From: Hyphococcus sp.
Lineage (GTDB): Bacteria; Pseudomonadota; Alphaproteobacteria; Caulobacterales; Parvularculaceae
Assembly (NCBI GenBank): GCA_013002535.1
Contig: JABDJK010000116.1
Span: forward strand, 62,001-126,000
Direction of reading: 5' to 3'
Length of the DNA: 64,000 nucleotides
A model generated the notes under the pieces. The model worked only from the letters and a program-made list of their open reading frames with translations. It was not told the origin of the DNA and searched no databases. Shown one piece after another: positions 2,685 to 17,085 of the stretch. Made by a program: the position numbers and the translations under genes. The number at the start of each line of letters is the position of its first letter. Within the stretch, counting starts at the first letter, position 1.

Positions 2685-4025
2685 TCACAATAGCATCGCC
2701 ATCGGGTCTTCAATGAATTTCTTGAAGGCAGAGAGAAATTCTGCGCCAACCGCCCCGTCAACGACTCGGTGATCGCAGGTCAACGTCACGGTCATAACCG
2801 TCGCGATCTCCATCTTGCCGTCCTTCGCAACCACACGTTGTTCGCCCGCGCCGACGGACATGATTGCGCCATGGGGCTGGTTCACGATGGAGGCGAAGGA
2901 TTTGATCCCGAACATTCCGAGGTTTGAGACCGAGAATGTGCCGCCCTGATACTCCTGCGGCTTCAGTTTGCGCTCTTTGGCGCGGCTCGCCATGTCTTTG
3001 ACTTCAGCAGAAATGGTTTTGAGGCCCTTTTCTTCGGCTTTCCAGACGATTGGCGTGATGAGCCCGCCATCGATGGCGACAGCAACGCCGATATCCGCGT
3101 GCTTGTGCATCAGGATCGCTTCATCGGTGTAGGTGGCGTTCGCGGCCGGCACCGCTTTCAACGCCATAGCCGACGCCTTGATGATGAAGTCATTGACGGA
3201 CAGTTTGAACGCAGCGTCGCCTTCCTTCGGCGAAGTTGAGTTTATACGGGCACGCACCTCCAGCAAATGATCCAATTCTATATCTACGTTTAGCGGGAAA
3301 TGCGGGACTTCATTGTTGAAGCTCTGCGTCAGTCTTTTGGCGATCACCTTGCGCATGCCGTCAACTTTGATCGCCTCATAGCTTTCCGGCGGATAGAGCC
3401 GCGCATCAACGGACGCCGGCGCAGCGACAAACTCTTTTGCTTGCGCTGCAACAGGCACAGCGGCGCCCGCTTCAAGGTTCTCTACATCGCGCTTGACGAT
3501 GCGACCGTTGGGGCCGCTGCCGTTGACTGCAGACAGATCGACGCCTTTTTGTTCGGCTATGCGACGAGCAAGCGGTGATGCGAGAATGCGACCGTTGGTT
3601 TTCGCACTACGCTTTTCCTCCCCCACCCGTGGGGGAGGTGTCGACGCAGTCGACGGAGGGGGCGTTTTGTTTTCAGCCCCCTCAGTCTGCTTCGCAGACA
3701 GCTCCCCCGCCGGCGGGGGAGCAGAGGCGCCATTTGATCCGCCACCACCCAAAGCCGACAAATCAATGTCCCCGGCGCTTTCACCATCCTCGAGCAGAAC
3801 CGCAATTGGCGCGTTCACCTTCACATTCTCTGTGCCGGCGTCGATGATGATCTTGCCGACAACGCCTTCATCCACGGCCTCGACTTCCATCGTGGCCTTG
3901 TCGGTTTCGATCTCGGCGATGACGTCTCCGGATTCCACTGTGTCGCCTTCCTTGACGTTCCATTTGGCGAGCGTCCCCTCTTCCATAGTGGGCGACAGGG
4001 CGGGCATCAAAATTGGTGTCGGCAT
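2685..4025 (-). CDS. pdhC: Pyruvate dehydrogenase E2, dihydrolipoyl acetyltransferase
   Basis: 446 residues. E2 forms the core of the pyruvate dehydrogenase complex and transfers acetyl groups from lipoyl-lysine to CoA. Order: lipoyl domain 1-80 with lipoyl-lysine K43 (ETDKATME), a Pro-rich linker 81-143, E3/E1-binding domain about 145-182 ([15 protein letters not shown]...GPNGRI), and the catalytic acyltransferase domain ending with the active-site HRVVDG motif. Residues 101-138 of the linker are encoded by an in-frame palindromic repeat element. The lipoyl domain is nearly identical to the one in pdhB. Neither E1-alpha nor lpd is adjacent. Confidence 0.96.
3612..3724. repeat. Palindromic repeat element inserted in frame in pdhC
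   Basis: A compound of perfect hairpins: 3617-3625/3630-3638 (cctccccca / tgggggagg), 3640-3645/3649-3654 (gtcgac twice), 3656-3663/3676-3683 (gagggggc / gccccctc), 3685-3690/3694-3699 (gtctgc / gcagac), and a 22-bp uninterrupted palindrome at 3701-3722. A degenerate element with the same order of hairpins lies between genes at 35035-35162. Intergenic elements of this CTCCCCC...GGGGGAG type are frequent in alphaproteobacteria; here the element codes for residues 101-138 of pdhC. Confidence 0.88.
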
Positions 4026-4070
4026 GTTTAATCCAGATTTCCTGTTTTCTTTTCGCTCAACCTAACCCGC

Positions 4071-4143
4071 CGCTCATTCCCGCGAAAGCGGGAATCCATG
4101 AAATTTGGCACTGAATAGATTCCCGCTTTCGCGGGAATGAGCG
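4071..4143. repeat. Intergenic inverted repeat, 26-bp perfect arms
   Basis: Arms at 4071-4096 and 4118-4143 are exact reverse complements over 26 bases, with a 21-base spacer; each arm contains its own small hairpin (ttcccgc gaaa gcgggaa). This is the widespread alphaproteobacterial cattcccgcgaaagcgggaat repeat. It lies between the GFA gene and pdhC. A diverged copy sits inside rsmB at 16673-16748. A frame running through it (4057-4332) is a translated repeat, not a gene. Confidence 0.9.
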
Positions 4144-4171
4144 GGTGGAGGTATATAGACGGAGCTTCAAC

Positions 4172-15684: not shown

Positions 15685-17085
15685 TTATCTGTACTGCAAT
15701 ACGGCGATAAAAAACCCGTCCGCACGGATTTTGTCAGGCGTTAACCGCAGCGCGCCGTCGACGGTTTCGCAGGCGCGAAGCTCGACGATCGTATCATCAT
15801 TGAGCAATCCGGAAGCCATTATAGAATCGACCGCTGGCGTTCGCGAAAATTCAGGATTGTCCGCAAAAAAAGCTTCTAACCGGTCTTCGTTTTCTTCCAT
15901 CAAAAACGAACACGTTACCCAGACCATGCGCCCGCCCGGTTTCACATATTGTGACGCCTCACGCAGTACCTGATCTTGTTCACCCAAGCGCGTTTGCAAC
16001 TGTTTTTCGGTGAGACGCCATTTCGTGTCCGGGTGTCGCCGCCAGGTCCCGGAGCCCGTACACGGCGCATCAACGAAAACGATATCCATCTTGCCCTCAA
16101 GCGCCGACAACGCCTCTTTATCCGTTTGCGGATTGATAAACTGAAGATTGCGAAGTCCTGACCGCTTTGCGCGATGATAAAGCGGCTTTAGACGCCGCGC
16201 GTCACAGTCATAGGCGTAAAGCTGGCCCGTATTTTCCATCATGGCGCCGAGCGCCAGCGTCTTGCCGCCGCCGCCTGCACAATAATCGAGTACCTGCGCG
16301 CCCTTTATATCGCCGGCCGCAGCGGCCGCGATCTGCGAGCCCAAATCTTGAACCTCGACCCAGCCCTTATTGAAAGCGGGGATCACTGTCACCGCGGGCG
16401 CTTTTTGCGACGGAACAGGCGCAGCGATGCGCGCCGCAGTTTTCAGTATTGGAGCCGCCTCGCCTTGAACAGTTTTGAGCGCGGCAAGCGCCTTTTCAGG
16501 CGTGGTCTTTAATGTGTTGACCCGGAGGTCGACATCGGCGCGCTCTGCAAAGCCCGCCATTATCGCGCCGGCATTGTCGCCTAAGACGCGGGTTATTTTT
16601 GGCGTCAGCCATTCCGGGTAGTCGCCGAGTATATGATGATCAACTACGAGAAATGAATCTCCCGCCTCTGCCCTCCGCTCTTCCCCGCGAAAACGGGGAT
16701 CCATTTCAGGCGACGCCGGGATTTCCCCTTTCGCGGGGATGAGCGGAGTTGAGTTGAATGCATTCCGCTCAATATTCGACAGCGCTCCCGGCCCATGCGG
16801 CTCTTCGACAGCCGCCTCCGTCAATTTGTCAACGGACATTTCCCAGAGGAACCGCGCGGCAGCGAAAACAAGCGCGCGCGGATTATCGTCCTGCATGGCA
16901 TGTGTCAGCCAATGCTTACGCCGCAGCACGTCCAGACACAGCCCCGAAATCCACGCACGATCCTTAGCGCCTGCGTAACGATTGCTGCGTCCCCAATCCG
17001 CAATAGCAGTCTTCAACGGAACGCGCCGCGCTTCAAAGTCTTCAAGAATTTCAATTGCGGCAGAGAGCCGTCCGGAAAGGCGCAT
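15685..17085 (-). CDS. rsmB: RsmB/NOP-family RNA cytosine-5 methyltransferase
   Basis: 466 residues. It likely methylates C967 of 16S rRNA or a related RNA position. The SAM-binding motif I is VLDYCAGGGGKTLALG, and both family cysteines are present: DAPCTGSGTWRRHP and the nucleophile in WVTCSFLMEENE. An N-terminal helical NusB-like domain (about 1-105) precedes. Residues 113-138 are encoded by an in-frame palindromic repeat and include the MDPRFRGE peptide typical of translated repeats. The assignment to RsmB rather than RsmF rests on the N-terminal domain. Confidence 0.88.
   Translation of the reverse strand: MRLSGRLSAAIEILEDFEARRVPLKTAIADWGRSNRYAGAKDRAWISGLCLDVLRRKHWLTHAMQDDNPRALVFAAARFLWEMSVDKLTEAAVEEPHGPGALSNIERNAFNSTPLIPAKGEIPASPEMDPRFRGEERRAEAGDSFLVVDHHILGDYPEWLTPKITRVLGDNAGAIMAGFAERADVDLRVNTLKTTPEKALAALKTVQGEAAPILKTAARIAAPVPSQKAPAVTVIPAFNKGWVEVQDLGSQIAAAAAGDIKGAQVLDYCAGGGGKTLALGAMMENTGQLYAYDCDARRLKPLYHRAKRSGLRNLQFINPQTDKEALSALEGKMDIVFVDAPCTGSGTWRRHPDTKWRLTEKQLQTRLGEQDQVLREASQYVKPGGRMVWVTCSFLMEENEDRLEAFFADNPEFSRTPAVDSIMASGLLNDDTIVELRACETVDGALRLTPDKIRADGFFIAVLQYR
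16673..16748. repeat. Palindromic repeat inside rsmB
   Basis: Arms 16673-16702 and 16719-16748 are imperfect reverse complements (ctccgctcttccccgcgaaa against tttcgcggggatgagcggag) around a short centre. It is a diverged relative of the repeat at 4071-4143. The reading frame of rsmB passes straight through it. Confidence 0.82.

Follow-up and report, generated by a model that had tools for sequence, protein, structure and literature searches.

An in-frame palindromic repeat in the predicted inter-domain linker of an RsmB-like methyltransferase: a dispersed element at a probably tolerated insertion site in the Parvularculaceae

The rsmB-like gene of a marine Hyphococcus sp. genome carries an in-frame palindrome of 76 nt which, judged from its sequence, is a diverged copy of an element dispersed through the genome. 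This insert is probably the outcome of recurrent neutral insertion of dispersed palindromes into a disordered linker of the RsmB protein, which would make the linker a tolerated landing site and not a new working part. The whole stretch of DNA that was analysed (64 000 nucleotides) is referred to as the window; genomes and loci are designated by G and L numbers, respectively, the present genome being G000. The gene (15685–17085, minus strand) encodes a 466-residue product that was assigned to the 16S rRNA m5C methyltransferase family on the basis of its RsmB/F methyltransferase domains (Pfam) and its Fmu fold, both of which are present; the NCBIfam RsmB equivalog cut-offs were missed (192.8 bits versus 319 and 174.5 bits versus 269).

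The palindrome (16673–16748, minus strand) occupies codons 113–138, is translated as the peptide TPLIPAKGEIPASPEMDPRFRGEERR and was identified by an inverted-repeat call, by its fold and by the covariance model R1 described below (77.6 bits). According to the inverted-repeat call, arm 1 in the sense direction (16719–16748, minus strand) is read in the PLIPAKGEI frame and arm 2 (16673–16702, minus strand) in the MDPRFRGEER frame. The arms are 30 nt long each, 83% complementary and separated by a 16 nt spacer. The fold of the DNA strand has an energy of −30.4 kcal/mol (z −5.8) and none of 200 dinucleotide shuffles was as good. An earlier note on this DNA had described an inverted repeat at 16673–16748 coding for RsmB residues 113–138, and arm complementarity, z score and codon numbering all confirm it. 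The sequence TTCCCGCGAAAGCGGGAA matches each arm with three mismatches and has four sites in the window compared with 0.19 expected. Nothing matching was found in Rfam at this locus.

Canonical copies of the element read CCGCTCATTCCCGCGAAAGCGGGAATCCA-core-TGGATTCCCGCTTTCGCGGGAATGAGCGG and consist of two head-to-head dRS3-like hairpins, ATTCCC(N8)GGGAAT, flanking a short variable core (73–110 nt per copy). Model R1 was built from eight copies of the element. It gave 45 matches (both strands) in the present genome, corresponding to about 22 places, and was matched in 44 of 62 family genomes; these counts are lower bounds, as only part of the candidates were scored. The present genome was read in stretches amounting to 25% of it. 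A canonical, near-perfect intergenic copy lies in the window upstream of pdhC, between pdhC and the next gene (4070–4144, no strand assigned; inverted-repeat call and R1). A copy is also located just upstream of pdhC in G042 (L134). The suggestion in the earlier note of a translated palindrome of the mobile type is thus supported, the DNA itself being the dispersed repeat, and a likeness of residues on unrelated DNA is not what was found. No target-site duplication was seen by eye at the rsmB, hpnG or G009 copies, no transposase was found for the element and no paper naming the translated element peptides turned up in a literature search. Copies presumably reached their sites by transposition.

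The element is depleted from genes. It is nearly always intergenic: among 79 copies inspected, only two were clearly intragenic, one in rsmB of the present genome and one in hpnG of G042. Several long open reading frames spanning other copies were judged antisense or spurious (from codon scores and reading) and hence not counted as genes. One of the seven strongest ungapped inverted repeats (score ≥16) in 856 kb of the present genome is located inside a gene, and this is the rsmB copy; 88% of the bases are coding. A special friendliness of the repeat towards open reading frames was considered and rejected, as shuffled sequences are just as open. At least one open frame was present in 76 of 76 genomic copies tested, with a mean of 3.3 of the six frames open versus 3.8 in shuffled copies. 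Since all tested copies have an open frame, like nearly all shuffles, no coding adaptation of the repeat is needed.

The rsmB repeat had also been grouped with a case in pdhC. In-frame repeats do recur, in other rsmB orthologues and in hpnG; pdhC has one as well, a compound repeat of another kind, whose hairpins are not of the rsmB repeat family. The linker region of pdhC (3617–3722 of the window) contains two perfect short hairpins of this compound repeat. An intergenic stretch at L225:427–551 has an architecture similar to that of the pdhC compound repeat. Another type of intergenic palindrome in the present genome, with GTCAT..ATGAC ends, is found at L239:1383–1461 and L258:11040–11120.

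The AlphaFold model of the RsmB product matches E. coli Fmu/RsmB (1sqf) over its whole length. The ferredoxin-like domain (RsmF/B) was assigned to residues 156–225 and the catalytic domain to residues 263–464 with Pfam, which gives no NusB-like call for residues 1–110; these residues are regarded as NusB-like because of the whole-length structural match to 1sqf. The model (AF2) has a mean pLDDT of 91.5 and essentially only residues 118–145 (16651–16734, minus strand) fall below 50, as nearly all residues of this segment do. The insert is therefore predicted to lie in a disordered linker between the N-terminal and ferredoxin-like domains and, being essentially the sole part of the model with such low values, the segment would not belong to the core fold. 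Of the position between the NusB-like and catalytic domains given in the earlier note, the inter-domain linker stands, but the insert precedes the ferredoxin-like domain and not directly the catalytic domain. A copy of the element would have entered rsmB within the linker-coding stretch and could have persisted there by virtue of a length and frame that leave the gene open. The longer, floppy linker should spare both domains, as it is the sole low-confidence part of the model, and would leave them working.

Orthologous RsmB proteins vary in length, as a comparison proposed earlier has now shown. From the sequences compared, linker length appears to be free only in this family, in which it ranges from fewer than 20 residues up to about three times as long, and to be fixed outside it: all 27 outside sequences (Hyphomonadaceae, Rhizobiales and others) have a linker of exactly 20 residues. 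The nearest named genomes to the present genome are Marinicaulis and other Parvularculaceae. Long non-palindromic linkers occur in several relatives (L015, L017, L018, L020 and L022), most of them with a common SSPC-A motif.

The element (PLIPAKAGIQ...MDPRFRGDER) was found at almost the same residue of RsmB in eight species (G000, G040, G035, G033, G037, G028, G024 and G020) belonging to a Marinicaulis-type genus, and comparison of the orthologues revealed remnants in the linkers of G026 and G038. The G038 insert has collapsed, an in-frame remnant alone being kept; that of G035 has decayed (fold z −1.0); G028 and G024 have in common a further hairpin within arm 2; and the linker of G001 contains an apparent remnant of the first kind of element in another frame. 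Once they have arrived, inserts would decay, gain nested hairpins or collapse. Compound forms thus circulate: in different species, rsmB and hpnG have copies of the element whose arm 2 holds an inner, second hairpin module, AACAGCGCGC..GCGCGCGGG (L021, L023, L199 and L204). The assembly of the present genome is a draft in 116 contigs, which might raise the question of an assembly artefact or of a chance inverted repeat; given the z score, the family of copies and the same insert in independent genomes, such an origin is scarcely conceivable, and the orthologues refute it.

Unrelated palindromes occupy the same linker in two other genera. In G009 it contains a palindrome of 103 nt, whose arm has 31 matches in G009 and none in the present genome, and a 103 nt unit with the same architecture is found at further loci of G009. 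A third kind is present in G018 (11 arm matches in G018 and none in three other genomes searched, including the present one). By these counts each palindrome appears to be the dispersed repeat of its own genome. Such a presence of unrelated repeats at one site favours recurrent insertion: the family would have received repeated insertions at the rsmB linker and at one hpnG site, drawn from whichever palindrome family abounds in each genome.

The insertion point varies by no more than about one residue among all rsmB carriers. This is a hint of a preferred target or of an older common ancestry with many losses. It is possible but rather doubtful that the element was inserted only once, in the ancestor of the genus, and that vertical inheritance was followed by many losses. 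Such a history would account for the near-identical junctions among the rsmB carriers and among the hpnG carriers, as well as for the core or nested module common to close pairs or groups (G042/G020 for hpnG and G024/G028/G033 for rsmB). However, the carriers do not form one clade but are interleaved with empty species (single clade rejected, p-AU 2.3e-6), more losses than gains would be needed, distant carriers resemble intergenic copies at least as closely as they resemble one another and the same sites are filled by unrelated palindromes. The rsmB gene tree carries at least five state changes for the element of the present genome and at least eight if other insert types are counted.

The earlier note had further proposed that palindromes were co-opted as protein linkers. 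The inter-domain position of the insert and its presence in several species are what recruitment as a functional linker or contact would lead one to expect, but the inserted peptides vary between species, sister species with an empty linker keep an otherwise intact enzyme, the segment is predicted to be disordered, unrelated palindromes replace one another and G038 retains only a collapsed remnant. Co-option is thus unsupported and very improbable, and tolerated insertion fits the RsmB insert better.

The same pattern was observed in a second gene. A hpnG-like phosphorylase gene (loci L194–L220) contains the element at one site in ten relatives (G042, G020, G028, G022, G019, G023, G044, G037, G040 and G035), whereas this site is empty in the present genome and in about fifteen others. 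The hpnG inserts read AHSRESGNP...MDPRFRGDER, so the frame of arm 1 differs from that in rsmB. In G025 the site is filled by an unrelated palindrome (21 motif matches in G025 and none in the present genome). Between G042 and G020 the insert differs at two of 78 bases, compared with 147 of 729 in the remaining gene (p 2e-5), and the core of this insert is confined to that locus within the genus.

Some signals are at odds with plain neutrality, as the hairpin pairing and the silent sites of the inserts are kept better than coding demands. In most rsmB inserts the stem pairing exceeds that of synonymous recodings (0 of 200 for the copy in the present genome), the arms covary in six rsmB copies and nine of 75 fourfold sites inside inserts differ versus about 29 expected from the flanks, in pairs that are non-independent and of which two are possibly separate insertions. 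The strong pairing, the covariation and the conservation of the hpnG insert between G042 and G020 are not what an old insert under purely neutral drift would show. Any one of three causes could account for the kept hairpins: the inserts arrived recently, copies exchange sequence, or the hairpin is under selection. If selection acted on the mRNA or DNA hairpin itself, which might for instance serve to pause translation between the domains or to bind a protein, the protein linker would be merely its carrier; pairing above the synonymous expectation, covariation of both arms, slow silent sites and the use of other strong hairpins as replacements would all follow. We consider this unlikely, as recent insertion or copy exchange produces the same signals and the lengthened linker is absent from most species and from all 27 non-family sequences; moreover, the decay of the G035 insert (to z −1.0) and the collapse in G038 speak against strong selection on the insert. 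We infer that recurrent insertion into the rsmB linker was neutral. Only tentatively would we put forward a wider picture, in which the rsmB linker and the one hpnG site are true hotspots, unrelated palindrome families target them and replace each other, hairpin selection or copy exchange keeps the dyad symmetry and both genes record a family-wide turnover of repeats.

The element was compared with several known repeats. Neisseria dRS3 is a 20 bp repeat, ATTCCC(N8)GGGAAT, with about 700 copies, which forms intergenic arrays (NIME) and is a target of phage integration (PMC3898611). The arms of the canonical element (ATTCCC GCGAAAGC GGGAAT) fit this pattern exactly (PMC3898611), but here two arms make one unit of about 76 nt and the rsmB arms themselves deviate from the pattern. 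Short paired hairpins in a mosaic and nested arrangement are reminiscent of REP/BIME. A REP/RAYT origin was rejected because the present genome contains no Y1 transposase (PF01797); none was found either in G040, which has the most element matches, while nine of 28 genomes contain one. ERIC, Correia and other bacterial MITEs are small non-autonomous repeats that occasionally form in-frame fusions with genes (PMC2229807), and the element resembles by description those that carry open reading frames, although neither target duplication nor TA termini were noticed.

The best-known cases of palindromes translated in frame within proteins come from Rickettsia and Wolbachia. The Rickettsia palindromic elements (RPEs) were studied by Ogata et al. 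(reviewed in PMC2229807 and PMC10969869); they and the Wolbachia palindromic elements are dispersed, lie within genes without breaking the frame, occupy the same site in orthologues and fall in exposed parts of proteins; different groups have been reported close together in one gene (PMC3767692, PMC10969869, PMC2229807). Whether the shared sites are insertion hotspots or reflect one old insertion was left open (PMC3767692), and the present family provides a natural test: across about 28 related genomes, two of its enzyme genes have sites that are filled, empty, collapsed, nested or replaced. The rsmB element differs from RPEs in its size (76 nt versus about 100–150 nt), in its host family, which does not belong to the Rickettsiales, in being mostly intergenic in this family and in the clearly unrelated repeat families found at one site. 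Like RPEs, it is a dispersed palindrome that also occurs outside genes, it has entered a conserved gene in frame, at a site that is empty in orthologues, and its predicted location in RsmB is an exposed or flexible segment. By analogy, it would appear to work like the Rickettsia palindromic elements and may be placed among the protein-coding palindromic repeats by its behaviour rather than by sequence homology.
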